Shown: in pieces, positions 3,856 to 29,711 of the stretch
Layout of the letters: the number at the start of each line of letters is the position of its first letter
Numbering within the stretch: position 1 is the stretch's first letter
Source: an uncultured bacterium
GTDB lineage: Bacteria > Bacillota_I > Bacilli_A > RFN20 > CAG-826
Assembly (NCBI GenBank): GCA_949297055.1
Contig: CASFRI010000059.1
Coordinates: 1-33,490 of the forward strand
Direction of reading: 5' to 3'
Length of the DNA stretch: 33,490 nucleotides
Translations under genes and position numbers: made by a program
The notes under the pieces: generated by a model
The model's database searches: none
Told to the model about the DNA's origin: nothing
Seen by the model: the letters and a program-made list of their open reading frames with translations, nothing else

Positions 3856-3856
3856 A

Positions 3857-4366
3857 ATGCAAATTAATCTTAAAACCTTAAAAGTTGGTGAACCACTCCA
3901 TATTGAAACATCTTTAAAAGATGAATTAAAATCTTTGTTACCAACCTTTAAAATTAAAGATGTTTTAAGTCTCGATGCTAAAATTAATTTAGCGAATCTA
4001 GGGCAAGAAATTTATAGTTTAGATATCGAAACAAAAGGTAAATTTATTCTCGTCTGCGCTTATTCTTTAAAACCTTTTATAAAAGAAGTAATCACTAAGG
4101 ACCATTTTTATCTTACTTACGAAGAAAGTGACGATTTAGAAACTTTACAAATTGATTCACCTCATCTTGATATCGATGGTAGTTTTTTACTTCCTTTGAT
4201 CGATGCAGAAATTGGTTTAGCCCCAGAAGGCCCAGATGTCGATATTTCTAAAATTGAAGGGTTAAAAGATGAAGTTACTTATCTCAAAGAAAAAGAAGAA
4301 AATTTAGACCCTAGATTAAGTGCATTAGATAGTTTTCATTGGGAGGACGATGAAGATGAAAAATAA
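3857..4366 (+). CDS. yceD: YceD/DUF177 family protein (rRNA accumulation)
   Basis: A 169-residue acidic protein of the DUF177/YceD type. Homologues affect 23S rRNA accumulation in bacteria and plastids. Seen here: a central strand region with ILVCAYSLKPFIKEV, where the family usually has the Cys-containing 'C-x-R-C-L' segment; only the first Cys is kept. A later DAEIGLAPEGPD segment and the C-terminal DPRLSAL tail are also typical. ATG 3857 follows TAGGAG (3846-3851) within the pheT end. In many Firmicutes this gene precedes rpmF (L32), but here it is followed, with an 11-base overlap, by a sugar-nucleotide dehydrogenase. Assignment is by motif resemblance and is moderately sure. Confidence 0.7.
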   Translation: MQINLKTLKVGEPLHIETSLKDELKSLLPTFKIKDVLSLDAKINLANLGQEIYSLDIETKGKFILVCAYSLKPFIKEVITKDHFYLTYEESDDLETLQIDSPHLDIDGSFLLPLIDAEIGLAPEGPDVDISKIEGLKDEVTYLKEKEENLDPRLSALDSFHWEDDEDEK

Positions 4367-5558
4367 ACGTATTTGCATCGTTGGATCTGGTTATGTCGGA
4401 TTATCGTTCGGCATCGTTTTAGGTTTGAAATATGATGTTACTTGTTTTGATATTGACTTAGCGAAAGTTGAAATGATAAATAGACGTATTCCCCCATTTG
4501 ATGAGCCTTACATTCAAAGTGCTTTTAACGATGAAAATTTATCTTTAAAAGCGACGAGTGATAAATTAGATGCTTATTTAGATAAGGATTTTTATATTAT
4601 TTGTCTTCCGATTAAGCCAAATAAGAAAGATGAACATTTCGATATTTCTCCTTTAAGAAATGTCATAAAAGACATTTTAGATCTTAATAAGTCCGCCCAT
4701 ATCGTCATCAAATCGACTTTGCCCATCGGCATTAGTCAAAAGATGCAAGAAGAATTTCATCATAAATTTATTTTGTTCTCTCCTGAATTTTTAAGAGAAC
4801 AACACGCTATTTATGACACCTTATATCCGAGCCGCATCGTCGTAGGTGGAAATAAAGCTGACCCAGAAGTAGCAGCATTGATGCAAGAATATGCGATGAT
4901 GATTCAATCTTGCATTTTAAAAAGTGATGCACCTATCGTCTTTTGTTCCACTAAAGAAGCAGAAGCTATTAAGTTATTCTCCAATTCTTATTTAGCGACA
5001 CGCGTCGCTTTATTTAACGAAATCGATTCATATTGCTTAAAAGATGGGGAAATGTCTACAAAAAATGTCATAACTGGTATGGGAATGGATGATAGAATTG
5101 GTGATTTTTATAATAATCCTTCATTTGGTTATGGTGGCTTTTGCTTACCTAAAGATATCGCTGAACTTTCATTAGATGAAAATTATGATGGTTTCATTTT
5201 TAAAGCCACCAAACTATCGAATGAAAAAAGAGTGGAAGATATCGCAGATGCGATAGTAAATAAATTAGCGAATAAAAATGATGTTGTTGGCATCTATCGC
5301 TTAGCAATGAAAGCCAACACGAATGATTTCCGTACCTCAATCATCTTCTTTTTAATCGCTGCTTTAAAGAAAAGAAACATCAATCTTATCATTTATGAAC
5401 CATCATTCAATCTTGAAAAATATGATGATATTTCAATTTGTCGCGAACTCGATAAATTTAAAAAAGAAGCTGCCATTATCGTCGCAAATCGCTTAGACGA
5501 TAATTTAGAAGATGTCTTTGAAAAAGTATTTAGCCGAGATTTGAAGCGAATCGATTAA
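4356..5558 (+). CDS. UDP-glucose 6-dehydrogenase (HasB-like)
   Basis: NAD-dependent oxidation of a UDP-sugar to a UDP-uronic acid, normally feeding capsule or glycolipid synthesis. About 400 residues. Seen: a Rossmann start (ICIVGSGYVGLSFG), IKSTLPIG, SPEFLREQ, the Lys-containing segment EAIKLFSNSYLATRVALFNE, and the catalytic-cysteine motif NNPSFGYGGFCLPKD. The short form with YRLAMKANTNDFR resembles streptococcal HasB more than the longer Ugd proteins. Start: GGAGG at 4342-4346 is only 3 bases from ATG 4350 but 9 bases from ATG 4356, so I prefer 4356. It overlaps the end of yceD. No glycosyltransferase or synthase lies nearby, so the use of the product is unknown. A terminator follows. Confidence 0.9.
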   Translation: MKNKRICIVGSGYVGLSFGIVLGLKYDVTCFDIDLAKVEMINRRIPPFDEPYIQSAFNDENLSLKATSDKLDAYLDKDFYIICLPIKPNKKDEHFDISPLRNVIKDILDLNKSAHIVIKSTLPIGISQKMQEEFHHKFILFSPEFLREQHAIYDTLYPSRIVVGGNKADPEVAALMQEYAMMIQSCILKSDAPIVFCSTKEAEAIKLFSNSYLATRVALFNEIDSYCLKDGEMSTKNVITGMGMDDRIGDFYNNPSFGYGGFCLPKDIAELSLDENYDGFIFKATKLSNEKRVEDIADAIVNKLANKNDVVGIYRLAMKANTNDFRTSIIFFLIAALKKRNINLIIYEPSFNLEKYDDISICRELDKFKKEAAIIVANRLDDNLEDVFEKVFSRDLKRID

Positions 5559-10238: not shown

Positions 10239-12434
10239 ATGGAATTAAAAAAGTCACTAAAGATGCCAAGAACTGAGTTTGAAATGCGAGGCAATTTAGC
10301 AAAGAAAGAACCAATCTATTTAAAGGAATGGGAAGAAGATCATCTATTTAATAAGATGAACAAGGATAAAAATAAAGATTTATCTTTCGTTTTACATGAT
10401 GGTCCACCTTACGCGAACGGGGCTATTCATTGTGGGACGACAGTGAATCGCATTTTAAAAGATATCATCGTTCGATATAAAAATATGTCAGGCTTTTATA
10501 CACCTTTTAAACCAGGTTGGGATACACATGGCTTACCCATCGAAGTTAAAGTGACAAAATCAGGAGTGGACCGTAAACATATGCCGGCGAGCGAATTTCG
10601 TAAGCACTGTCACGACTATGCTTTAAGTCAAGTAGAAATTCAAAAAGGACAATTTAAAAGATTAGGGGTCGTGGGTGATTTTGATCATCCTTACTTAACC
10701 TTATTAAAACATTACGAAGCAACGCAAATTAGACTATTTGCTAAAATGGCTTTAAAAGGCTACATCTACAAAGGTTTTAAACCAGTCTATTGGTCACCCT
10801 CGAGCGAATCCGCGCTTGCGGAAGCAGAAATCGAATATTATGATGTCGAATCTTATAGCATCTACGTTGCTTTTGAAGTAAAAGATGGAAAAAATATTTT
10901 AAAACCGGGCGATAAATTAGTCATTTGGACGACCACTCCTTGGACTATTCCTGCTAATTTAGCTATTTCTGTCCATCCACGTTTCACCTATGGTTTATAT
11001 GACACTAATATTGGTCATATCTTAGTGCTAAAAGAATTCGAAGATAGATTGAAAGATGAACTTCATCTAGAAAAGATGAAATTGTTAAAAGAATTTAAGG
11101 GTAATGAATTAGAAGGAATTACTTGTGTCCATCCACTTTATGAAGATAAAGAATCGCTCGTCATCGTCGGTGAACACGTCACGAACGAAACAGGTACTGG
11201 TCTTGTTCATACGGCACCAGGACATGGTTTAGAAGATTATGTCGTTTCCTTGAAATATCATCTTCCCGTCTATTGCCCAGTCGATTCTTTAGGTAAATTT
11301 GACGCAAGTGTAGGCGATAGACTTAAAGGTATGTTCTATGAAGACGCAAATCCTATCGTCTTAAAAATGTTAGAAGAAAAAGGTCTACTTTTAACTTCTA
11401 ATAAATTCGTGCACGCTTATCCTCACGACTGGAGAACGAATAAACCACTCATTTTTAGAGCCACTCCACAATGGTTCTTTAGAATCGAACCCTTGAAAGA
11501 AAAATTATTAGAAGCAATTAAAGAAGTGAAGTGGAAACCTAGTTGGGGTGAACTTCGTATGTCTAATATGATCAAAGATCGCTCCGACTGGTGCATATCT
11601 AGACAAAGACTTTGGGGTGTACCAATTCCTATCATTTATAACGAAGATGATACCCCAATCATCGAAGAAGAAGTGTTCGAACATATCGCTAAATTATTCG
11701 ATGAATTTGGTTCTGATGTTTGGTTTAATAAAACAGCGAATGAATTATTACCAGAAGGTTATAGGAATGAACATTCACCAAACGGTAATTTCTATAAAGA
11801 AAAAGATATTATGGATGTCTGGTTCGATAGCGGTTCATCTTTTGCTTACACTTTAAAAGAACAAGGGGAAAAATATCCTGCAGATTTATATTTAGAAGGA
11901 AGCGATCAATATCGTGGTTGGTTCAATTCTTCTTTAATTATTAGTGTAGCTACTGAAGGAGTAGCCCCTTATAAACAAGTTATTTCGCACGGCTGGGTGA
12001 TGGATGAAAATCTTAGGAAAATGTCTAAATCACTCGGTAATGGTATCGATCCTAATCAAATCGCTAATGTCTATGGGGCGGATGTTTTAAGACTTTATAC
12101 ATCGACTATTAGTTACGATCAAGATATGCGTATTGGCGACAATATTATCAAGCAAAGTAGCGAAGTTTACCGCAAATTAAGAAACACGTTTAGATTCTTA
12201 CTTGGCAATTTAAATGAATCGTTAGATGGATTACCCTTTGATCCAAAAAAAGTAAAAGAAAAAAGTTCTTATTTAATTGATAAACTTGTATTAAACAAGT
12301 TCCATCGTGTCCAAAACGATTTTATTGAAGCGATGAAACGCTTTGATTTCGCAAGCGGGATGGCGAAAATTTTAAATTTCTTAAGCTTTGATATGTCTTC
12401 ATTTTATTTAGATATCACCAAAGAAATTTTATAA
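10239..12434 (+). CDS. ileS: isoleucyl-tRNA synthetase, N-terminal part ended by an in-frame TAA
   Basis: Class I synthetase charging tRNA-Ile. 731 residues before TAA at 12432-12434. Seen: the HIGH-type PPYANGAIHCG, the catalytic and CP1 editing domains (WTTTPWTIPAN, GTGLVHTAPGHG), and KMSKSLGNGIDP. The frame stops after FYLDITKEIL, in the anticodon-binding domain. It would continue directly with CEPLDSN and the rest of IleS, and relatives have Tyr (L-Y) at the stop position. A single TAT/TAC-to-TAA change therefore explains the break. The joined protein would be about 927 residues, the normal size. The truncated product lacks part of the anticodon-binding region and the zinc domain. Alternatives are sequencing or assembly error, read-through, or a real lesion backed by another ileS copy. 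Confidence 0.93.
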   Translation: MELKKSLKMPRTEFEMRGNLAKKEPIYLKEWEEDHLFNKMNKDKNKDLSFVLHDGPPYANGAIHCGTTVNRILKDIIVRYKNMSGFYTPFKPGWDTHGLPIEVKVTKSGVDRKHMPASEFRKHCHDYALSQVEIQKGQFKRLGVVGDFDHPYLTLLKHYEATQIRLFAKMALKGYIYKGFKPVYWSPSSESALAEAEIEYYDVESYSIYVAFEVKDGKNILKPGDKLVIWTTTPWTIPANLAISVHPRFTYGLYDTNIGHILVLKEFEDRLKDELHLEKMKLLKEFKGNELEGITCVHPLYEDKESLVIVGEHVTNETGTGLVHTAPGHGLEDYVVSLKYHLPVYCPVDSLGKFDASVGDRLKGMFYEDANPIVLKMLEEKGLLLTSNKFVHAYPHDWRTNKPLIFRATPQWFFRIEPLKEKLLEAIKEVKWKPSWGELRMSNMIKDRSDWCISRQRLWGVPIPIIYNEDDTPIIEEEVFEHIAKLFDEFGSDVWFNKTANELLPEGYRNEHSPNGNFYKEKDIMDVWFDSGSSFAYTLKEQGEKYPADLYLEGSDQYRGWFNSSLIISVATEGVAPYKQVISHGWVMDENLRKMSKSLGNGIDPNQIANVYGADVLRLYTSTISYDQDMRIGDNIIKQSSEVYRKLRNTFRFLLGNLNESLDGLPFDPKKVKEKSSYLIDKLVLNKFHRVQNDFIEAMKRFDFASGMAKILNFLSFDMSSFYLDITKEIL

Positions 12435-13022
12435 TGTGAACCGCTTGATTCTAATAGACGATTGATGGTGCAAAAACTCATCTATGAAGTGCTTGAAACT
12501 TCCATGCGTTTACTTAATCCAATCTTGCCTTTTACGATGTATGAGGTGAATAAATATCTACCTGGTAGAAAAGTTGATAATCCAACTTATCTATCTTATC
12601 CTACGACAGTAGAAGTTGAAGAAAAATTAGATGAATTATATTCTTCTTTCTTGAAATTAAGAGATGACGTTTTAAAAGTTTTAGAAAATAGACGTCAAGA
12701 AGGAGTAATTGGTTCTTCACAAGAAGCAAGTTTACTTCTTTACGTTGAAGATAAAACTTTAAGTGAAGCTTTAAATAAACTAGATTTAAAAGAACTAGCG
12801 AGACTTTTCATCGTTTCTAAAGTTACTTTAGTAAGTGCCTCTAATGGATTAGAAAAAGGAGAAGTTTCTTATTTAAGTGTTAAAAAGCACGACGGACACA
12901 AGTGTTTGAGATGTTGGAATTATGAAGACGCTTCTCACATGCACGAAGTCGATGGTGAAGAAGTGTGCGATCGTTGTTATGAAGCTATTAAAAATTTAGA
13001 GGAACAAAACGATGAAAAATAA
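12435..13022 (+). pseudogene. ileS: C-terminal part of ileS, downstream of the in-frame stop
   Basis: Continues the ileS frame without any shift. It contains the rest of the anticodon-binding domain (LLNPILPFTMYEVNKYL) and the C-terminal zinc finger (CLRCWNYEDASHMHEV...CDRC). The first possible internal starts are TTG 12462 and ATG 12465, with no Shine-Dalgarno in front, so independent translation of this 186-residue piece looks unlikely. Its intact reading frame and kept zinc cysteines argue against old decay. lspA starts inside its last codons. Confidence 0.85.
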
Positions 13023-16090: not shown

Positions 16091-16999
16091 TTATTTTTCC
16101 TCCAAGATTGCATTAAATGTCTTAAAATGTAACTTAGCGACATTTTTAAAATCATCGATAGAATATTTATCAAGAAATTCTTTTCCAGTTTTAATAACTT
16201 CGTAAGAGGCTCCAAAGGGGAAGTGCATTTGATATTTATCATCGAGTTTTTGCATGTATCTTAAAAAAGCGTAACGAGCGATACAAGAGGCGATAGCGAT
16301 GCTAGGATAATGACTTTCACCGTGCACTTTAAATGTAATGTTGCTTAATATTTCTTTTTCATCTTTTACGTAACGATAAAATAACTCTTCGCTACAAAAT
16401 TTATCGACATAAATATTTTTATTAAAATGATATTTCTTACTTAAGTTAAGTAAAGCTTGATGATGAAGAAGGGCTTTTAATTTATTCAAGTTATAACCTC
16501 TTTCATACATCTCATTATATTTTTTGTTGTCTAAGACCATCAAAGAATAATGTGTACGTTTTAAAATGCTTGGAACGATCTTTAATATTTTTCTATCATC
16601 CAAAACTTTTGAATCAGCGAAACCTAAATCTTGATAATAAGAAATATCTTCTTTTTCTAAATGAACTGCGCAGACGACAAGTGGGCCAAAAAAATCTCCT
16701 GCTCCGACTTCGTCGGAACCAATTTGAGTTTCTAAAGAATATACTAGTTTGTTAGAAGCATCTACTTCATCATTTTCTTCTTTTAAATTTGGATCGAACA
16801 TCTTAGCGATTTTATAAGCGTCTTTGCCATAGAAGTTAACGCTATGAAGAGATTTTTTTTCGATGTAAACATCGATTTTAAAATTCTTATCTTGATAAGA
16901 AGTAATGACGTAAGCAGGAAGATTATCTTCCACTTTAAAAGGACGATAAAGTTCATCGAGTTTCGTTATTTGTAGAGCGTTAAGTTTAAGTGAATACAT
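16091..16999 (-). CDS. rnhC: ribonuclease HIII
   Basis: Degrades RNA in RNA/DNA hybrids. About 302 residues. Seen: an N-terminal TBP-like region (about 1-80), the catalytic IGSDEVGAGDFFGPLVVCA, the DSK motif (FADSKVLDD), VDKF, and HGESHYPSIAIASCIAR. GSDEVG with FGP separates HIII from HII. I choose ATG 16999 (MYSLKLNALQ); the earlier GTG at 17020 falls in the promoter -10 region. Divergent from uvrC across 66 bases. The mRNA is probably nearly leaderless. Confidence 0.93.
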   Translation of the reverse strand: MYSLKLNALQITKLDELYRPFKVEDNLPAYVITSYQDKNFKIDVYIEKKSLHSVNFYGKDAYKIAKMFDPNLKEENDEVDASNKLVYSLETQIGSDEVGAGDFFGPLVVCAVHLEKEDISYYQDLGFADSKVLDDRKILKIVPSILKRTHYSLMVLDNKKYNEMYERGYNLNKLKALLHHQALLNLSKKYHFNKNIYVDKFCSEELFYRYVKDEKEILSNITFKVHGESHYPSIAIASCIARYAFLRYMQKLDDKYQMHFPFGASYEVIKTGKEFLDKYSIDDFKNVAKLHFKTFNAILEEK

Positions 17000-17065: not shown

Positions 17066-18829
17066 ATGAACGATAATCTAAAAGTAAAAATTCATAACTT
17101 AGTGACAAGTCCTGGTGTCTATTTAATGTATGATAAATTTCATCATATTATTTACGTTGGCAAAGCTAAAAATTTAAAGAATCGTGTAAGCCAATATTTC
17201 CTTCGCCCACAAGTGGGGAAAGTGATGAAGATGGTAAGTGAAATTGAAGACTTTGAAACGATTGTTACGCGCAGTGAAAAAGAAGCATTAATACTTGAAT
17301 TAAATCTCATTCAAACGCATTATCCTAAGTTCAATATTTTATTAAAAGACGATAAGCATTATCCTTATATTGCTATCAAAAAAAGTAAAGATCCTTATCT
17401 AAGAATCGCAAGAAAAAAAGATGATAAAAATAGCATCTATTTTGGACCATTTCCTAATTCGACAAGTTGCTATGAAATGATTGATATATTAAATACCATA
17501 TTTCCACTAAGAAAATGCCAAAAATTGCCTAAAAAGCCTTGTTTATATTATCACATGGGTGAATGTCTCGCACCTTGTATCAATGATATTAATAGCGAAA
17601 TTTATGGTGCTTTAGTAATGAAAATTAAACGATTTTTAAATGGCGATAATAAAGAAGAAAAGCAAGCTTTAATTAATAAGATGAATAATCTTTCAAATAA
17701 TCTAGATTTTGAAGGGGCAAATCGTATCAAAAAGATGATTTTAGCTATCGATCATATCAACGATACGCAGAGGGTCGAGATGAATGATTTAAAAGACCGC
17801 GACGTCATTGCTTTTTCTTCAAAAGAAGGCTACGTTACCATCGCAATTTTAACTTATAAAAGAGGAATTTTATTAGGCAAAAATACATTTACTTCCGCTC
17901 TCATTTTTGATGTTTATGATGATGTGTGTTCCTTAATTGAACAATATTATCAAAATAACGAACTACCGAATGAAATAATTATTGGTGATGGAATATTAAA
18001 AGAAAAATTAGATGCAAGTTATGAAGAATGTAAAATTATTCATCCTCAAAGCGGAAAACTTTTAGATATTTTGCTTATGGCACAAAAAAACGCTGTCGAA
18101 GGATTAATTTTACATTTTCAAACAGCAAGATTAAAAGATGATAACTATGCCTTAATTGAAAAATTAGGGGAATTACTTCACATTCCTACACCTAACCATA
18201 TCGAATTATTTGATAATTCACATTTACAGGGCGACGACCCAGTTGGGGCGATGGTTTGTTTCATTAACGGCCTTCCGCAGAAGAAGATGTATCGTAAATA
18301 CAATTTAGAAAATTTTAAAAGACAAGATGATCTTCTTTCTATGAAAGAAATTGTCTATCGTCGTTATAGAAGGTTAAAAGAAGAAAATAAATCTTATCCT
18401 GATCTTATTTTAGTGGATGGTGGAGTTAATCAAATTAAAGCTGCGAAAGAAGTTTTACGTGAACTAGAAGTAAATATTCCAGTTTTTGGCTTATATAAAG
18501 ATAGTCATCATAACACTAAAGGTTTAGTGGACGTTAATGAAAATATTTATCCTTTGGACAATGAACAAAAATTGTTCTTTTTACTTGTAAGAATGCAAGA
18601 TGAAGTACATCGTTTCGCTATTAGTTTTCATCATCAAAGAAGAGCTAAATCATTATTTGCTAGCCCATTAGATGGCATCGAAGGATTAGGAGAAAAAAGA
18701 AAGATGAAACTATTAAGTGTCTATGGAAGCGTGGAAAAGATTAAAGAATCATCTTTAGAAGAGATTGCACAACTTGTTCCAAAAGATGTAGCAAAGCGCG
18801 TGAAAGATAAACTCGATGAAATGTTGTAA
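17066..18829 (+). CDS. uvrC: excinuclease ABC subunit C
   Basis: Makes both incisions in nucleotide excision repair with UvrA and UvrB. 587 residues, normal length. Seen: a GIY-YIG domain (SPGVYLMYDKFHHIIYVGKAKNLKNRV), the four-cysteine segment KCQKLPKKPCLYYHMGECLAPC typical of UvrC and linked to an iron-sulfur cluster, a UVR domain (about 205-240), the RNase H-like nuclease domain (IELFDNSHLQGDDPVGAMV, DLILVDGG) and a C-terminal helix-hairpin-helix (GLGEKRKMKLL). ATG 17066 has no ribosome binding site. The tRNA-Arg promoter overlaps its stop codon. Confidence 0.97.
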   Translation: MNDNLKVKIHNLVTSPGVYLMYDKFHHIIYVGKAKNLKNRVSQYFLRPQVGKVMKMVSEIEDFETIVTRSEKEALILELNLIQTHYPKFNILLKDDKHYPYIAIKKSKDPYLRIARKKDDKNSIYFGPFPNSTSCYEMIDILNTIFPLRKCQKLPKKPCLYYHMGECLAPCINDINSEIYGALVMKIKRFLNGDNKEEKQALINKMNNLSNNLDFEGANRIKKMILAIDHINDTQRVEMNDLKDRDVIAFSSKEGYVTIAILTYKRGILLGKNTFTSALIFDVYDDVCSLIEQYYQNNELPNEIIIGDGILKEKLDASYEECKIIHPQSGKLLDILLMAQKNAVEGLILHFQTARLKDDNYALIEKLGELLHIPTPNHIELFDNSHLQGDDPVGAMVCFINGLPQKKMYRKYNLENFKRQDDLLSMKEIVYRRYRRLKEENKSYPDLILVDGGVNQIKAAKEVLRELEVNIPVFGLYKDSHHNTKGLVDVNENIYPLDNEQKLFFLLVRMQDEVHRFAISFHHQRRAKSLFASPLDGIEGLGEKRKMKLLSVYGSVEKIKESSLEEIAQLVPKDVAKRVKDKLDEML

Positions 18830-18851
18830 TTTTTCATAGTTTCTTTATAAT
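18824..18851 (+). promoter_or_regulatory. promoter of tRNA-Arg
   Basis: TTGTAA (18824-18829), 16-base spacer, TATAAT (18846-18851), ending 9 bases before the mature tRNA. Confidence 0.6.
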
Positions 18852-18860
18852 ATTGCTTGT

Positions 18861-18937
18861 GCCCTCATAGCTCAGTTGGATAGAGCAACGGCCTTCTAAG
18901 CCGTAGGTCAAGCGTTCGAGTCGCTTTGAGGGCGCCA
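18861..18937 (+). tRNA. tRNA-Arg (anticodon UCU)
   Basis: A complete cloverleaf. Acceptor arms GCCCTCA and TGAGGGC pair over 7 bases, the D arm is GCTC/GAGC, and the anticodon stem is ACGGC/GCCGT around loop CTTCTAA (anticodon TCT). The T arm is AAGCG/CGCTT around TTCGAGT. The discriminator is G and CCA is encoded. It reads AGA, the main Arg codon expected in AT-rich genes. Confidence 0.97.
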
Positions 18938-21683: not shown

Positions 21684-24062
21684 ATGGCAAATGAACAAAA
21701 CCTCAACAACATTTTAGATGATTCAAACCCTACGCATATGGACTTGATGCTCCTTGTGACAAGAGGTTTAGTTATCTTACCTGATGGAAACGTCCAAACA
21801 GTCGAAGCTGGTCGAGACTTTTCGATGAATGCTGTCTTAAAAGCTAAAGAAATTGAAAATTCACTCATCGTAAGTGTCTCACAAAAAAGTTTTGAAATAG
21901 ATAATCCGAAGCAAGAAGATATTTATGATGTTGGAACTTTATGTCGCATCGTAAGCCTTACGCAAGTAAAAGATAAAGGTTACGTTCGCGCAAGATTAGA
22001 ACCTTTACGTCGTTTTAAGATTGAAAAGGTTTATCTTCCAAACGAATCATCTAATTTCTACGCCTGTAGCGGAGAAACTTTACTTCCTATTAATGAAGAT
22101 AGTCCAAATACCCAAGTTGCGTTCAAACATCTCGCGGATGAACTTATCAAACTTGCAGGACAAGGTGGACCTAAATTCCCACGCAATTTCCCTTTTAATT
22201 TCTCTCGTACGCAAAAAGCTTCTAACGTCACCGACTTAGTGGCAAATTATTTAGAAAACGTTTCTAACGCGGAAAGACAACAAATTCTCGCAACTGCGGA
22301 CGTGGAAGAACGTATTAAATTATTACTTGCTTTCATCGAAAGAGAAAAACAAATTTCCGAAATTGATCGTAATCTAACTCAATCGATTCAAAAATCGACG
22401 GAAAAATCGCAAAAAGAATATTTCTTAAGAGAAAAACTTAAAGCGATTAAAAAAGAATTAGGAGAAGATGTCGATGGGGAAAATTCCGAAGAAGGAATTA
22501 AAGACCGATTAGAAAAAAATCCTTATCCAGAACATGTTAAAGCTAAAGTAAGAGCGGAATTAAAACGCTATGAACTTATGCCTCAAGGAACGCTTGAAGC
22601 GTCTTTAATCAAAGCTTACATCGATACTTTGATGGATGTACCATGGTATCAAAAGACGGAAGATAATGATGACTTAGATAACGTAAGAAAAATACTTGAT
22701 GAAGACCATTATGGTCTTAAGAAAGTGAAAGAAAGAATTATCGAATATCTTGCAGTCAAGAAGATGACCGGTAATTTGAAAGCTCCTATCTTATGTTTCT
22801 ATGGTCCGCCAGGATGCGGAAAAACTTCTTTAGGTAAAAGTATTGCAAGAGCTTTAGGAAGAAAATTTTTCAAAGCTAGTTTAGGTGGTATTAGCGATGA
22901 AGCCGAAATTAGAGGTCATAGAAGAACTTACGTCGGAAGTATGCCTGGAAGAATTATTTCCGGAATGAAAAGATGTAAGACAATAAATCCTGTCTTCTTA
23001 CTCGACGAGGTCGATAAATTATCAAATTCTTATAAAGGTGACCCTTCTAGCGCACTTCTTGAAGTGCTTGATCCCGAACAAAATTTCGCTTTTAACGATA
23101 ATTATTTAGAAGAACCTTATGATCTATCTAACGTCTTATTCATTGCAACTGCAAATTATTTAGAAAATGTACCAGAACCACTTCGTGACCGTCTTGAATT
23201 GATCGAAGTTCCTTCTTATACAACTTTAGAAAAATGTGAAATCGCTAAGAACCATCTCGTCAAAAAACAAATTCAGGCAAATGGTTTAAAAGATAATCAA
23301 GTAACAATTAAAGAAGAAGCAATTCTTTACATCATCGAAAGATATACAAGAGAAGCTGGTGTACGTGAACTCGAACGTCAAATTGCATCGTTATTACGTA
23401 AGATTGACGTCGAATTACTCACCAATAAAGATGTGACGCACATCGAAGTGGATGTCGAAGCAGTAAAAAAATATCTTGGCGTAGAAATATTTGATTCTTC
23501 TAGTAAAGAAAAAGAAGCTCAAGTTGGTGTAGTTACAGGCTTAGCTTACACTCAATTCGGTGGTGATATCTTACCGATTGAAGTTAATTACTTCCCTGGT
23601 AAGGGACAACTAATTCTTACTGGTAAACTTGGCGATGTCATGAAAGAAAGTGCTTCTATCGCCTTAGATTACGTTAAGGCTAACGCAAAGCGTTACGGTA
23701 TTGATTCTAAGCTCTTTGCTGAAAACGATATTCACATCCATTTTCCAGAAGGCGCTATTCCAAAAGATGGGCCAAGTGCTGGCATTGCTATTTCAACTGC
23801 CATCTATTCTTGTCTTACTGGGAAAGCAGTGGATAATAATGTCGCTATGACGGGAGAAGTCACTTTAAGAGGTAACGCCTTACCGATTGGTGGATTGAGA
23901 GAGAAATCTCTCGCTGCTTTAAGAAGCGGAATCAAGACAATCATCGTCCCAAGTGAAAATAAGAAAAGTGTAGCAGAACTTCCTAAAGAAGTGATTGATA
24001 ATTTAAATATCATTTACATGAAAAATGTCGATGATGCCTTAAAGGTGGCTATCAAACAATGA
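21684..24062 (+). CDS. lon: ATP-dependent protease Lon
   Basis: Cytoplasmic AAA+ serine protease that removes damaged and regulatory proteins. 792 residues. Seen: an N-terminal substrate domain (about 15-210), a coiled coil (about 215-290), Walker A FYGPPGCGKTSLGKS, Walker B PVFLLDEVDKL, the sensor region FIATANYLENVPEPLRDR, and the C-terminal protease domain with catalytic Ser in PKDGPSAGIAIS and Lys in LREKSLAALRSG. AAGGAGGTG precedes ATG 21684. Its TGA stop overlaps the engB start (ATGA). The upstream inverted repeat may regulate it; no CIRCE or CtsR box is visible. Confidence 0.98.
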   Translation: MANEQNLNNILDDSNPTHMDLMLLVTRGLVILPDGNVQTVEAGRDFSMNAVLKAKEIENSLIVSVSQKSFEIDNPKQEDIYDVGTLCRIVSLTQVKDKGYVRARLEPLRRFKIEKVYLPNESSNFYACSGETLLPINEDSPNTQVAFKHLADELIKLAGQGGPKFPRNFPFNFSRTQKASNVTDLVANYLENVSNAERQQILATADVEERIKLLLAFIEREKQISEIDRNLTQSIQKSTEKSQKEYFLREKLKAIKKELGEDVDGENSEEGIKDRLEKNPYPEHVKAKVRAELKRYELMPQGTLEASLIKAYIDTLMDVPWYQKTEDNDDLDNVRKILDEDHYGLKKVKERIIEYLAVKKMTGNLKAPILCFYGPPGCGKTSLGKSIARALGRKFFKASLGGISDEAEIRGHRRTYVGSMPGRIISGMKRCKTINPVFLLDEVDKLSNSYKGDPSSALLEVLDPEQNFAFNDNYLEEPYDLSNVLFIATANYLENVPEPLRDRLELIEVPSYTTLEKCEIAKNHLVKKQIQANGLKDNQVTIKEEAILYIIERYTREAGVRELERQIASLLRKIDVELLTNKDVTHIEVDVEAVKKYLGVEIFDSSSKEKEAQVGVVTGLAYTQFGGDILPIEVNYFPGKGQLILTGKLGDVMKESASIALDYVKANAKRYGIDSKLFAENDIHIHFPEGAIPKDGPSAGIAISTAIYSCLTGKAVDNNVAMTGEVTLRGNALPIGGLREKSLAALRSGIKTIIVPSENKKSVAELPKEVIDNLNIIYMKNVDDALKVAIKQ

Positions 24063-24643
24063 TCAATTTTGCGAACGCTAAATTCATAAAAAGCGTTGCA
24101 AGCGATATGGACTTTCCTTCGCCTCGGCTTTGGGAAGTCCTTTTTCTTGGCCGTTCGAACGTAGGAAAATCTTCTATTATCAATGCCTTGTGCAATAAAA
24201 AATCTTTAGCGTTCGTTTCAAAAAATCCTGGCCATACGACTTTATTAAACTACTATTTAATCGATGATAAATTTTATCTGGTGGATGCACCAGGTTATGG
24301 CTTTTCAAGTCGCGATAAAAATCATTATAAAATATTCGCGAGTCTTATGGATAATTATTTTAAAAAAAGCGATAAATTAAAATTCGCTATCGTGTTATTA
24401 GATATTCGAAGAAGAATTAATGAGGATGATAAATTGATGATTGATTACTTAGTGGCAAATCATATTCCTTATCGCTTAGTGTTTACAAAATATGACCAAG
24501 CTAATCAACAAGAGAAAGCCAAAGCTAAGAAAATGTTAATGGATATTTATAACATTGATAAGTTAGATATCATCTTTACATCTTCAAAAGATAAAGTAGG
24601 TTTAGAAATTTTAAAAGAAACAATTGAAAAAGCATTAAAATAA
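24059..24643 (+). CDS. engB: ribosome biogenesis GTPase EngB (YsxC)
   Basis: GTPase needed for late 50S subunit assembly. 194 residues. Seen: G1 GRSNVGKSSIINAL, the switch region PGHTTLLNYYLI, G3 DAPGYGF, G4 TKYD and G5 TSSK. The start overlaps the lon stop by four bases, so translation is coupled; lon-engB adjacency is common in Firmicutes. A hairpin terminator follows, the first of two near-identical copies flanking the abiE genes. Confidence 0.96.
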   Translation: MINFANAKFIKSVASDMDFPSPRLWEVLFLGRSNVGKSSIINALCNKKSLAFVSKNPGHTTLLNYYLIDDKFYLVDAPGYGFSSRDKNHYKIFASLMDNYFKKSDKLKFAIVLLDIRRRINEDDKLMIDYLVANHIPYRLVFTKYDQANQQEKAKAKKMLMDIYNIDKLDIIFTSSKDKVGLEILKETIEKALK

Positions 24644-24666: not shown

Positions 24667-24697
24667 GGGAAACGCTATTACAAGTAGCGTTTTTTTA
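24667..24697 (+). terminator. engB terminator (left copy of a flanking repeat)
   Basis: AACGCTA (24671-24677) and TAGCGTT (24685-24691) around a 7-base loop, then T. The segment from GGGAAACGCTATTA through the T-run recurs at 26213 with two differences in about 28 bases. Confidence 0.85.
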
Positions 24698-24725
24698 ATG
24701 TTCACAATTTAGTTTAATTTCAATA

Positions 24726-24754
24726 TTGATTTTTTTAAAAAATATCATTATTAT
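24726..24754 (+). promoter_or_regulatory. promoter of the abiE genes
   Basis: TTGATT (24726-24731), 17-base spacer, TATTAT (24749-24754). Predicted start is near 24761. Confidence 0.6.
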
Positions 24755-24765
24755 TTATGTATAAA

Positions 24766-24790
24766 TCCGTAAAAATTGAAAAAATACGGA
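24766..24790 (+). promoter_or_regulatory. candidate AbiEi operator (inverted repeat)
   Basis: TCCGTA (24766-24771) and TACGGA (24785-24790), centres 19 bases apart, lie just downstream of the predicted start. AbiEi antitoxins are known to repress their operon by binding inverted repeats at the promoter. Confidence 0.5.
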
Positions 24791-24810
24791 AAAATACTTT
24801 AATTAAATTT

Positions 24811-25353
24811 ATGATTTACACTTATCAAGAATGCATTGAAATGTTTGGAACTTATTATGCTTTTAGCAAAGCTTTGGCGGCTAAAAAAATCTTTAAAATT
24901 AAAGAAGGAGTTTACGCAGATGAAAATAAGCCAAAAGAAATAGCGATTTTTGTAAAAGAATATCATAAAGCAATTTTTACGATGCAATCTGCGTTTTATT
25001 ATTTAAATATAAGTGATGTTGTTCCAAATAAATATTATGTCGCTACCGATAAAGATGCATCAAAATATAAGAAAGATAACATCGTACAGTATTTTTTAAA
25101 CAATGGGTTAGATAAAATTGGTGTAACGACGATGAATTATGCCGGTACAGAAATTAAGCTTTTTAATAAAGAAAGAATGCTTATCGAATTAATTCGATAT
25201 AAGAATAAAATCCCATTTGATTATTATAAGGAAATCATCAATTATTACCGTGAACATATCGATGAAATTAATATTCCCCTAGTGGTCAAATATCTAAGCA
25301 ATTTTCCAAAGAAAAGCCTAATTAAAAGAACGATTGAATTAGAGGTTTTATAA
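24811..25353 (+). CDS. AbiEi-type antitoxin/regulator
   Basis: About 180 residues from ATG 24811. Seen: a winged-helix-like N-terminus (MFGTYYAFSKALAAKKIFKIKEGVYADE) typical of AbiEi antitoxins, then a helical C-terminal domain with AGTEIKLFNKERMLIELIRYKNK. The earlier ATG 24757 lies only 2 bases after the -10 box and would precede the transcription start, so I reject it. No Shine-Dalgarno is evident. The role is to neutralise the downstream AbiEii toxin and repress the operon. Codon use is more AT-rich than in the core neighbours. Confidence 0.75.
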   Translation: MIYTYQECIEMFGTYYAFSKALAAKKIFKIKEGVYADENKPKEIAIFVKEYHKAIFTMQSAFYYLNISDVVPNKYYVATDKDASKYKKDNIVQYFLNNGLDKIGVTTMNYAGTEIKLFNKERMLIELIRYKNKIPFDYYKEIINYYREHIDEINIPLVVKYLSNFPKKSLIKRTIELEVL

Positions 25354-26160
25354 TTGATAAATTTAAAAGATCTTCACCATCAAATTGAAGAAGATGGTTA
25401 TAATGGCGAGATGATTGAGGCTAAAATGTGCCAAGATATTATGCTCCTTTTACTTTCAAAGAGCAGATTTAGTAAAAATATAACAATTAAAGGCGGGGTA
25501 GTAATGAGTAGTATATCTAATAATATTAGAAGGGCTACTATAGATTTAGACTTAGATTTTATAAAAATTCCTTTAAATAATAATCAAATTAAACGTTTCA
25601 TCAAGGAATTGAACTGTGTAGAAGGAATTACAATTAAAATAGTTGGCAAAATTGAAAAATTGAGACATCAAGAATACAAAGGAAGAAGAATTTATTTAAA
25701 TATTCGAGATTCATTCAATAATTCAATAAATGGCAAATTGGATATTGGGGTGCACAAGTACATGACATTAGAACAATGCGAATACTGTTTTGATATCTAT
25801 GCTTCTGATGAAGGAGTGTCTCTTTTAATTAATTCGCTTGAACAAATTTTTACTGAAAAAATAAAATCATTGCTCAAACATAGTATTTTTTCTACTCGAT
25901 ACAAAGACATATATGATATTTATTTTTTTCTGGATAAAATTGATAAAAATAGCTTGCGTCGATGTTTCGAAATGCTAATTTATAAAGATAAAGGATTATC
26001 AGAAAATAATATTAGCGATCTTTTTAATAGCATCAAATTTATCTTCTCTGACGTTGGCTTTAGAAAGAAATTATATTCATCTTCGAGAAATTGGATTGAT
26101 GTAGACAATGATATTGTATTGAATTCTATATTGGAATTCTTGTTTTCGTTAGTTAATTAA
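25354..26160 (+). CDS. AbiEii-type nucleotidyltransferase toxin
   Basis: 268 residues. Seen: the family signature IKGGVVMSSISNN followed by RATIDLDLDF (nucleotidyltransferase GG and D-x-D acid residues), LDIGVHKYMTLEQ, and LEQIFTEKIKSLLKHSIFSTRYKDIYDIYFF, matching the E-K...R-x-K-D-x-Y-D block of AbiEii toxins. Related enzymes transfer nucleotides, in MenT cases to tRNA, to arrest growth or block phage. The start is TTG 25354 directly after the antitoxin stop, with AGAGGT 7 bases upstream; the two are a bicistronic pair. Phage defence or stabilisation is inferred from the family. Confidence 0.82.
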   Translation: MINLKDLHHQIEEDGYNGEMIEAKMCQDIMLLLLSKSRFSKNITIKGGVVMSSISNNIRRATIDLDLDFIKIPLNNNQIKRFIKELNCVEGITIKIVGKIEKLRHQEYKGRRIYLNIRDSFNNSINGKLDIGVHKYMTLEQCEYCFDIYASDEGVSLLINSLEQIFTEKIKSLLKHSIFSTRYKDIYDIYFFLDKIDKNSLRRCFEMLIYKDKGLSENNISDLFNSIKFIFSDVGFRKKLYSSSRNWIDVDNDIVLNSILEFLFSLVN

Positions 26161-26212
26161 CGATTTGCTTTTAAATAAAACAATTTTCGATAGTTAAAAG
26201 ATAAAATATCAA

Positions 26213-26242
26213 GGGAAACGCTATTATAAGAAGCGTTTTTTA
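26213..26242 (+). terminator. terminator after abiE (right copy of the flanking repeat)
   Basis: AACGCT (26217-26222) and AGCGTT (26232-26237), then T. It nearly duplicates the engB terminator. The rest of 26161-26276 shows no gene. Confidence 0.75.
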
Positions 26243-26276: not shown

Positions 26277-26824
26277 ATGTTACAAGAAAAGACAAAAAAA
26301 TATAATTCTAAGTATCTATATCGCGATCTTTTCTTTGCTTGGATTATTCTTATTAATTTTTACTATTTTTCTTTCAGCGATATTAATCTCACTACTAGTG
26401 TTGCAAAGTTATAATTTTACGAATTATTTTGTTGCTTGCAATTTAACTGCGCTTGCGGAAGATAATCGAACTTATCATCTCATTATCTCTCCTATCAACG
26501 AAGCAACTTTTTTTAGAAGCGAATGGGATAAACGTAGTCGAAGATCAATCGATTGCTAGGACGCATGATTATTGGAATATTTCTTTATCATCTATAGATA
26601 AAAATGGATTAGGTTGACAAGAATATACATTCTCTAATTTTGAGATTAACAAAGTTATATCGCACACAGAACTTTCCTATTGTTGCAGTTTAAATAATAA
26701 TTCTGAGGCTATGATTACCTTAGGAGAATATCCTTATAATGAAGACGAAAAACAAATTGCTTCTATCATTCTTGATATAAATAATTCCAATTATCGTTTA
26801 ATTAACTTCAAAACTAATAACTAG
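26277..26824 (+). pseudogene. broken gene for a membrane-anchored protein of unknown family
   Basis: Three lesions interrupt one gene. An ATG frame at 26277 (MLQEKTK) runs into a 7-A run (26294-26300). Taking one A away joins it to a hydrophobic segment (about residues 9-45, AIFSLLGLFLLIFTIFLSA) and then ALAEDNRTYHLIISPINEA. A 7-T run (26508-26514) again needs one base removed to enter FLEANGINVVEDQ and RTHDYWNISLSSIDKNGLG. TGA at 26615-26617 interrupts this frame, which then runs on to TAG at 26822-26824. The restored product is about 181 residues: one membrane segment and an external domain. I recognise no family. If not sequencing errors, the gene is dead or slippage-switched. Confidence 0.65.
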
Positions 26825-26872: not shown

Positions 26873-26878
26873 TTTTAA

Positions 26879-27100
26879 TGTCTTAGACCCAGAGGAGTAA
26901 GAAATAACTTCACTTTGTTAGAAAGATGATTCAAGGCTGAAAGATCATCAGTGAAATTTCTGAAGGTCGCTGGCGAGATAGGCTCATCACCCGTCACTTC
27001 GCGTTAAGAAGTAAAAAATGAAGCGTATAATGATATCATTATAAATCAAGGTGGTACCGCGCATACTTTGCGTCCTTGCTAGGACGTTTTTTATTTTTTA
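26879..27100 (+). promoter_or_regulatory. T-box riboswitch, Val-specific, upstream of valS
   Basis: T-box core AAGGTGGTACCGCG from 27048. AAGG can pair with CCTT (27074-27077). The terminator is CGTCC (27071-27075) with GGACG (27082-27086), followed by a T-rich run. GAAGGTCG in the specifier region gives GUC (26967-26969), a Val codon, in agreement with valS. Confidence 0.92.
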
Positions 27101-27116
27101 TAGGAGGTAATAGATT

Positions 27117-29711
27117 ATGCTCGATAAACGTTATGATCATAAATTAGTTGAAGAAGGGCGTTACGATAAGTGGTTAGAAGAAGGTTATTTTTCATTGCAC
27201 GATTTAACTAAAACACCTTTTTCTTTAGTTATTCCACCTCCAAATATTACTGGTAAATTACATTTAGGGCATGCTTGGAATACGACTTTGCAAGATATAA
27301 TCGCTCGTTATAAGAAAATGAAGGGGTTCGATGTTCTTTGGCTCCCTGGTATGGACCATGCTGGTATTGCGACGCAAGCACGCGTCATGGCGGAACTTCG
27401 TAAGCAAGGTATCGATACGAAAAAACTTACACGTGAACAATTTTTAAAATATGCCTGGGAACATAAAGATACTTTTTCTAAAACTATTCATGAACAATGG
27501 AAGATGATGGGCTTAGCCTTAGATTACACGCACGAAAGATTTACTTTAGATGAAGGCTTATCAAAAGCGGTTAACGAAGTATTTGTTAAATATTATAACG
27601 AAGGTTTAATTTATAAAGATAAACGTATTATTAACTGGGATCCAGTTCAGATGACCGCTTTATCAAATATCGAAGTCATCCATAAGGATGAAGAAGGTGA
27701 TTTCTTCTATTTTGCTTATCCTATTGTCGGAAGCGAAGAAAAATTAATTATCGCGACGACAAGACCCGAAACGATGTTCGCGGATGTGGCAATAGTGGTT
27801 AACCCTAACGATGAACGTTATAAAAAATACATTGGTATGAAAGCCATCAATCCTGCGAATGATGAACCTTTAATTATTATCGCAGATGATTACGTCGATA
27901 AAGAATTCGGCACTGGGGTGATGAAATGTACACCTGCACATGATCCAAACGATTTCTTAATTGGACAAAAATATCATCTTCCGATGCCAGAATGTATGAA
28001 TAAAGATGCGACGATGAATGAACTTGCGAAAGGCTACGTCGGTCTAGATCGTTACGCATGTAGAAAAAAACTTGTCGAAGATATTAAAAATAAAGGTCTA
28101 TTAGTAAAAATTGAAAAAATCGTGCACGCGGTCGGCCATAGCGAAAGAAGCAATGCAGTCGTGGAACCAATGCTTTCAAGCCAATGGTTTGTAAGAATGA
28201 AACCTCTAGCGGAAAAAGCCCTTGCTATGACGAAGAAAGAAGAACACGTCGAATTTATTCCATCTCGTTTTGAACAAGTCTTTATTCGTTGGATGGAAAA
28301 TTTAGAAGATTGGTGCATTTCTCGTCAACTTTGGTGGGGGCATCAAATTCCTGCTTATTATCATAAGGTGACAGGCGATTTAGTGGTCTCTGTTAATCCA
28401 CCTAAAGATATAGAAAATTATCAAAGAGATAATGATGTTTTAGATACTTGGTTTTCTAGTGCTTTATGGCCTTTTGCTACTTTAAATTGGCTAGAAAATA
28501 GTAAAGATTATCAAAGATATTTCCCAACGGACGTCTTAGTGACGGCTTACGATATTATTTTCTTCTGGGTATCACGCATGATCATGCAAAGTTTATCTTT
28601 GACCGATAAGATTCCATTTAAACGTGTTTTGATTCATGGTTTAGTAAGAGATGAACATGGTAAGAAAATGTCTAAATCAGCTGGAAATGGTGTCGATCCA
28701 ATCGAAGTTATCGATAAGTATGGTGTGGATGCATTGAGATATTTCCTTACGACTATTTCCACTCCTGGGCAAGATATTCGTTATAGCGAAGAGAAAATTA
28801 TTGCTTCATCAAATTATTTAAATAAGATTTGGAACGCGACTCGTTACGTTTTAACTTCATTAGAAGATATAAAATTAGATGATTTAAACTTCGATGAATC
28901 TCTTCTCACTAGTGTCGATTGTTTAATTATTGAAAGATTTAATAAGACATTAAAAGAAGTTGAAGAAGCGATGGAACGTTATGACTTTAACATGGCAAGC
29001 ACGCATTTATATAATTTTGTCTATGATGATTTCTGTTCTTCTTATTTAGAAGCTTCTAAAACTATTTTAAGAAGAGGGGAAGAAAAAGTTAAAGTTAATA
29101 CCGCAAAAGTTTTACTTTTAATGGTGAAAAATATTATTAAAATGATTTATCCTTATACGCCTTTTATCGCTGAAACTTTATATTTATCTTTGCCTACGCA
29201 TTTAGAATCAATAAATTTAGAAACTTATCCAGAAGAAATTAAGATTAAATTAGATGAGGATTTACTAAAAGAAGCCGCCTTAGTGTATCAATCAATTTTC
29301 GCTATTCGTTCATTTAAAGCGGAACAAAGACTTCGCCCACATGACGAATTAAATTTAGAAATTGTAGCCAAATTTCATGTTTCTAACTATGCTCCCTTAA
29401 TCTTAAAAGATTTATTACATCTTGGTGAAGTAAATGTAGTTAACGAAGATAAATTAGATAAGAATGGTAAAAATTTTATTTTCAATGAAACTAAAATTAA
29501 TTTGATCATCAAACAAGACGAAGAAGAAATAAACGCTCAAATTAGTAAGCAATTAGAAGCGATTGAAAAAGAAATATTACGTTCGAAAAAGATGTTAGAA
29601 AATCCATCTTTCTTAGCTAAAGCTCCCGCCGAATTAGTCAAAAAAGAAAAAGAAAAATTAGCATCTAATACCGCCATTAGAGATCAATTAGTCTCAAAAT
29701 TACATCAATAA
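27117..29711 (+). CDS. valS: valyl-tRNA synthetase
   Basis: Class I synthetase with CP1 editing domain. 864 residues, full length. Seen: PPPNITGKLHLGHAW (HIGH), TTRPETMFADVA and MKCTPAHDPND in the editing domain, WFSSALWPFATLNW, GKKMSKSAGNGVDP (KMSKS), the anticodon-binding domain, and a C-terminal coiled-coil arm (about 795-864). TAGGAGGT at 27101-27108 gives good spacing to ATG 27117. Controlled by the Val T-box. No terminator is visible before the small peptide gene, so valS, the peptide and radC may share a transcript. Confidence 0.98.
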   Translation: MLDKRYDHKLVEEGRYDKWLEEGYFSLHDLTKTPFSLVIPPPNITGKLHLGHAWNTTLQDIIARYKKMKGFDVLWLPGMDHAGIATQARVMAELRKQGIDTKKLTREQFLKYAWEHKDTFSKTIHEQWKMMGLALDYTHERFTLDEGLSKAVNEVFVKYYNEGLIYKDKRIINWDPVQMTALSNIEVIHKDEEGDFFYFAYPIVGSEEKLIIATTRPETMFADVAIVVNPNDERYKKYIGMKAINPANDEPLIIIADDYVDKEFGTGVMKCTPAHDPNDFLIGQKYHLPMPECMNKDATMNELAKGYVGLDRYACRKKLVEDIKNKGLLVKIEKIVHAVGHSERSNAVVEPMLSSQWFVRMKPLAEKALAMTKKEEHVEFIPSRFEQVFIRWMENLEDWCISRQLWWGHQIPAYYHKVTGDLVVSVNPPKDIENYQRDNDVLDTWFSSALWPFATLNWLENSKDYQRYFPTDVLVTAYDIIFFWVSRMIMQSLSLTDKIPFKRVLIHGLVRDEHGKKMSKSAGNGVDPIEVIDKYGVDALRYFLTTISTPGQDIRYSEEKIIASSNYLNKIWNATRYVLTSLEDIKLDDLNFDESLLTSVDCLIIERFNKTLKEVEEAMERYDFNMASTHLYNFVYDDFCSSYLEASKTILRRGEEKVKVNTAKVLLLMVKNIIKMIYPYTPFIAETLYLSLPTHLESINLETYPEEIKIKLDEDLLKEAALVYQSIFAIRSFKAEQRLRPHDELNLEIVAKFHVSNYAPLILKDLLHLGEVNVVNEDKLDKNGKNFIFNETKINLIIKQDEEEINAQISKQLEAIEKEILRSKKMLENPSFLAKAPAELVKKEKEKLASNTAIRDQLVSKLHQ

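Follow-up and report, generated by a model that had tools for sequence, protein, structure and literature searches.

The AbiE toxin–antitoxin module in the window (the whole 33,490-nt stretch of DNA analysed, from the genome of a rumen Bacilli bacterium, here G000) very probably represents horizontally acquired DNA that entered at the engB terminator in this lineage, with duplication of that terminator.

The repeated engB terminator

The 29-base terminator hairpin at 24667–24695 (GGGAAACGCTATTACAAGTAGCGTTTTTT) is present again at 26213–26241 (GGGAAACGCTATTATAAGAAGCGTTTTTT), and the copies are identical at 27 of the 29 positions; an earlier sequence-only reading of this DNA, which had reported a repeat behind engB and abiEii with two differences in about 28 bases, was accurate in this respect. 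When the alignment is extended, the identity is about 84% over 44 nt, and the longest exact stretch common to both copies is 14 bases. The left copy (24667–24696, forward strand) is the engB terminator and has an 8-bp stem (AAACGCTA/TAGCGTTT) with an A-T extension and a 7-T tail; its core is that of the single terminator in the relative G001, and it folds into a terminator hairpin with a T-run at −12.6 kcal/mol (z −5.7). The right copy (26213–26241, forward strand) folds in the same manner at −8.8 kcal/mol (z −3.9), has six Ts, and is followed by the host sequence that in G001 comes after the lone terminator. The left copy has the same base as G001 and a second relative, G002, at each of the two substituted positions; the two changes in the right copy are private and shorten the stem, which makes the right copy look like a relaxed duplicate.

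The two copies are the only matches in the host genome (1.06 Mb) when up to three mismatches are allowed. Among the family's 224 genomes, the 29-mer was found three times, namely the two copies in the window and the engB terminator of G001; the case that had been named as telling against the earlier reading, a hairpin widespread behind unrelated genes, is thus not what the family holds. This uniqueness in genome and family rules out a common genomic terminator or repeat. A looser pattern, AACGCT-N(3-14)-AGCGTTTTT, retrieves one additional, unrelated hairpin in the host genome, on contig 10, and viral contigs gave no match to the hairpin. As a control, bracketing direct repeats were sought in the window and in about 260 kb of sampled stretches of the same genome; the other pairs are paralogous coding genes (two seen as ABC-transporter genes, plus a third, weaker pair), and none of the pairs inspected is non-coding. 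The terminator repeat is far beyond chance expectation.

The inserted segment and its neighbours

The copies enclose a segment (24697–26212, forward strand) that is absent from G001, G002 and the more distant G003. Its GC content is 0.259 against 0.333 for the window, which places it in the lowest 0.8% of stretches of the same size and bears out the earlier description of the module as more AT-rich. The accompanying suggestion of a less ordered codon style is weak, with GC3 at 0.24 in the abiE genes against 0.26–0.28 in lon, engB and valS. The only ORFs of at least 80 aa in the 1.5-kb insert are abiEi and abiEii, leaving no transposase, recombinase or integrase ORF of that length. None of the 25 longest of 41 inverted-repeat pairs joins the ends of the insert, and neither AbiEi nor AbiEii has a PHROG match. 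With respect to target duplication, a terminator of about 31 bp that is single in G001 and G002 is duplicated here; with respect to an att-type arrangement, direct repeats are present and an integrase ORF is absent from the insert.

Upstream of the segment lies engB (ysxC/yihA; 24059–24643), which encodes a GTPase (NCBIfam TIGR03598, 184.8 bits). Downstream are a decayed small membrane-protein gene (26277–26823) that is intact in G001 (about 180 aa) and partly deleted in G002, the T-box leader of valS (26875–27080; Rfam RF00230, 99.8 bits) and valS itself (27117–29711; NCBIfam NF004349), all on the forward strand. The window has a second class-I aminoacyl-tRNA synthetase gene behind a T-box leader (10239–13022), which is probably ileS; it reads as 731 aa with an in-frame TAA, either a sequencing error or a real stop, and the frames of congeners are about 925–931 aa.

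The AbiE genes and a candidate operator

The gene pair is, judged by its profiles and motifs, a bona fide AbiEi/AbiEii pair. The predicted antitoxin and autorepressor gene abiEi (24811–25353, forward strand; 180 aa) matches PADLOC AbiEi (PDLC02238, E 2.6e-61) and has relatives in PDB 6y8q and 9hlo_A. The profile begins at residue 19 of a longer ORF that starts at 24757, and the true start is therefore probably 24811. The stop of abiEi abuts the TTG start of abiEii (25353/25354), giving an adjacent abiEi–abiEii operon. The predicted toxin gene abiEii (25354–26160, forward strand; 268 aa) encodes a DUF1814 nucleotidyltransferase (PADLOC AbiEii PDLC02310, E 1.3e-101; PF08843, 65.7 bits; relative PDB 9hlo_B). 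AbiEii nucleotidyltransferases have four motifs (hG[G/S]; DhD with an upstream R; a K/R motif III; and +DxxD), and residues of motifs I–IV are needed for toxicity in Streptococcus agalactiae (PMC3985639). In the alignment, all four are intact in the window protein (invariant G47 and G48, R60, D64, D66, K169, R182, K184-D185 and D188).

A palindrome, TCCGTA-N13-TACGGA (24766–24790), centred 33 bp 5′ of the abiEi ATG, is a candidate AbiEi operator (cf. PMC3985639). It overlaps a candidate forward-strand promoter (24776–24803) with a −35 TTGAAA (24776–24781), a 16-bp spacer and a −10 TTTAAT (24798–24803), read from the sequence as a consensus match. The earlier claim that abiE has its own promoter holds in that a promoter-like site exists, with this overlapping site as the better placed candidate. 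Since the palindrome does not exceed shuffles when the window sequence is taken alone (p 0.42), support for an operator is positional and comparative: in about 17 of 29 family abiE loci, the best palindrome is centred exactly at −33 from the ATG. The arms vary with the abiE subgroup (TCCGTA, CTAGGT, AGAAGGA and others; loci L088–L209) and stay self-complementary, and the subgroup palindromes are candidate AbiEi operators of differing specificity. The abiE operon is known to be autoregulated by AbiEi (PMC3985639, PMC7319586), which the position of the window palindrome over the putative promoter would match. At one locus (L178, in G150), an operator-like palindrome, GGAAGGA..TCCTTCT, is repeated directly after abiEii, possibly as an extra AbiEi site or as the remnant of a tandem module.

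The engB site in related genomes

The genome of the window was compared with three others of its genus (G001, G002 and G003), and a wider contig search for congeners returned the same three. In G001, whose engB is 95% identical, engB is followed by a single terminator with the core of the left copy and then by AAATTTCATATATACTGAAATCAAG, the sequence that in the window directly follows the right copy; the flanks are collinear and no module is present. An empty site with one terminator copy, as the sequence-only reading anticipated in relatives, is therefore found. In G002, the engB terminator is split by an insertion sequence (IS); joining its flanks, minus one copy of a 4-bp duplication, gives GTAGGGACCGCTATTACGAGTAGCGGTTTTTTG, one terminator whose stem changes compensate each other, followed by the same downstream sequence as in G001 and the window and without abiE. 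G003 has a different engB terminator, lacks the hairpin and has no abiE. A search for AbiEii found none in G002 or G003, and in G001 only a weak AbiEii-like match (24%) at another locus.

With G003 as the outgroup, G000, G001 and G002 stand at about the same distance from one another, so the simplest history has a single gain, in G000. Together with the empty site of G001, the single terminator of G002 and the absence of both hairpin and module from G003, this suggests that the abiE module was most likely gained in the G000 lineage and that this gain duplicated the host terminator. Entry at the terminator, as first proposed, gains backing from the G001 and G002 sites and from the uniqueness of the hairpin; among the four genomes, the insertion at engB is seen only in G000.

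abiE modules elsewhere in the family

Relatives of AbiEii occur in 65 of the 224 family genomes with a patchy distribution, and the near neighbours of the window module occupy other loci between other genes; in G108, abiE sits before a gene named as pth from its translation. Another locus (L091 of G179, 2445–5242) holds a direct tandem of two abiE modules that are divergent from each other, inserted before a gene whose translation reads as uppS. No AbiEii relatives were found in viral contigs, and those on plasmids or phages are all below 60% identical (22–30% for those listed).

A duplicated host terminator like that of engB is absent from the approximately 53 other abiE loci tested. A handful of these do have bracketing direct repeats, and the ones inspected are of other kinds: one lies beside an IS30-like ORF (L204), one is a long non-coding duplication (L199) and one has a copy inside a gene (L186). 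The abiE module of G066 is flanked by 66-bp repeats, of which G066 has only two full-length copies. Because shorter partial copies are found elsewhere in G066 and in congeneric genomes, and because the repeat begins exactly where G066 diverges from its close relative G063 (the island edge), we regard this repeat as part of the insertion and not as a duplicated target. These loci rule out a general tendency of abiE modules to duplicate terminators, and the duplication at engB is peculiar to that one event; a search for the repeat around other modules, as the earlier reading proposed, ties it to the engB insertion.

An insertion hotspot and a hairpin-splitting element

The gap between engB and valS is an insertion hotspot, with a different insertion in each of the four genomes. 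G000 has abiE, G001 an element with GTGACAAACTCATTGCAACG ends, G002 an IS3-family element inside the loop of the engB terminator, and G003 an element that has TTTGAGTTCCCCG ends and seems to have duplicated 8 bp, CTTTTATA (the G001 and G003 elements were judged by eye at contig ends). The transposase of the IS3-family element has Pfam rve and HTH_21 domains, and a complete copy of about 1.47 kb is present in L246. All five mapped sites (in G002 and G003; loci L161–L166 and L240–L246) split a terminator-like hairpin at its loop with a 3–4 bp duplication, and the engB terminator of G002 is one of these five. The rejoined flanks form hairpins, four with a T-run and the fifth with an A-run, as a terminator read from the other strand would show, and good folding is obtained only for matched left and right flanks. 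As contigs break at the element, flanks were paired by complementarity and the shared 3–4 bp duplication, and their folding is therefore not independent proof. IS1397 and ISKpn1 target hairpins at REP elements (PMC1525189), and IS1272 is reported to insert at inverted repeats (PMC5678879); given these precedents, we regard the hairpin targeting as a variant of known behaviour. As a side finding, it is perhaps more interesting than the abiE module.

Discussion

We suggest that a horizontally acquired type IV AbiE module was inserted at the engB terminator, in the non-essential gap before valS, and that the host terminator was duplicated during this event. The left copy would still terminate engB; the right copy would terminate the abiE operon and join it to the old downstream sequence. 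The duplication may have arisen by illegitimate or homology-assisted recombination or by a switch of replication template at the hairpin, and not through a module-borne enzyme. Homologous recombination in the terminator, the route first envisaged, is one possible means of entry; both recombination with an abiE-bearing congener and hairpin-associated repair or template switching would yield the duplication. A duplication of about 31 bp with no recognisable recombinase is unusual. By analogy with the family, the promoter-overlapping palindrome would let AbiEi repress the abiE operon, and AbiEi would, without direct contact, counter AbiEii, which would arrest growth as a GTP-binding nucleotidyltransferase.

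The right copy could instead derive from a donor, by homologous recombination with congener DNA that already had abiE beside the engB terminator. The genus-specific hairpin and the two substitutions of the right copy, absent from the left copy, G001 and G002, would fit such an origin, but no such donor is present among the four genomes compared, the private changes fit a relaxed duplicate too, and the original duplication is merely shifted to another strain; we consider it unlikely. A T seemingly shared by the right copy and G002 was dropped as a sign of donor origin with the G002 terminator taken from both flanks of its IS. Ancestral presence of abiE at this site, followed by loss in the relatives, is very unlikely. 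Excision by recombination between the terminators, which the sequence-only reading had also considered, is possible in principle and would yield exactly the single terminator of G001, but at least two losses (across G001, G002 and G003) would be needed against one gain, and exact identity between the copies extends over only 14 bases. The direction of change, gain or loss, is not strictly fixed by the three relatives; that the empty ones never carried the module is the simpler reading.

It is also improbable that the insert is a non-autonomous transposon, or a cassette mobilised by an integrase, that was moved in trans and made an unusually long duplication of its target. The clean direct repeats at its two ends, an empty site, and hairpin-targeting elements in the sister genomes would all agree with this, but the insert has no recombinase ORF and no end-joining inverted repeat among the pairs listed, the roughly 53 other abiE loci are without an equivalent duplication, and the IS3-family element of G002 splits the hairpin with a 3–4 bp duplication and does not duplicate it. 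Misjoining of the metagenome contig through the repeat scarcely merits belief: congener contigs do break within the engB–valS interval, but those breaks fall at IS-like ends, and the two copies differ, are both unique in the genome and have different unique flanks. Insertion with duplication of the terminator is the reading that we retain.

The module is a further member of the known AbiE (phage-defence type) family and a clean but fairly ordinary gene gain. With the AbiE of S. agalactiae (AbiEi COG5340 and AbiEii DUF1814; PMC3985639), it has in common the abiEi–abiEii order, nucleotidyltransferase motifs I–IV, a palindrome overlapping the promoter, and a mobile, patchy distribution. It differs in its short AbiEi (180 aa), in a 6-N13-6 palindrome where the S. 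agalactiae system has two 23-bp repeats, and in standing alone in a chromosomal intergenic gap and not on an ICE or plasmid. As with the target-site duplications of insertion sequences, host sequence is directly duplicated on both sides and a relative has the empty site; here, however, the duplication of about 31 bp is the entire terminator, and a transposase and terminal inverted repeats were not found in the insert. The result is an empty-site and filled-site pair, with junctions at base level, for a free-standing defence module without its own recombinase. Because duplication of the terminator leaves the abiE operon as well as its essential neighbour properly terminated, such insertions would be harmless and easily kept.

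Hairpin DNA is likewise the insertion point of IS1397 and ISKpn1 (PMC1525189) and of IS1272 (PMC5678879), and the IS3-family element of G002 lies in the same engB terminator. These transposase-bearing elements split the hairpin or take its place, whereas the abiE insertion leaves two whole hairpins. It is a speculative and rather doubtful extension that the terminator hairpins of the genus are general landing sites for mobile DNA, at which abiE-like cassettes enter by hairpin-dependent recombination or a template switch that copies the whole terminator, alongside IS3 insertions into loops; a newcomer cassette would then arrive insulated, bringing its own stop. The IS3-family element, found only in terminator loops, provides a testable explanation of why mobile DNA may land safely in terminators that follow essential genes. 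In a further locus of the family (L213 of G207), a 107-nt block is duplicated around a transposase-like gene (16877–16983 and 18756–18862), and this block contains a terminator with compensating stem changes.
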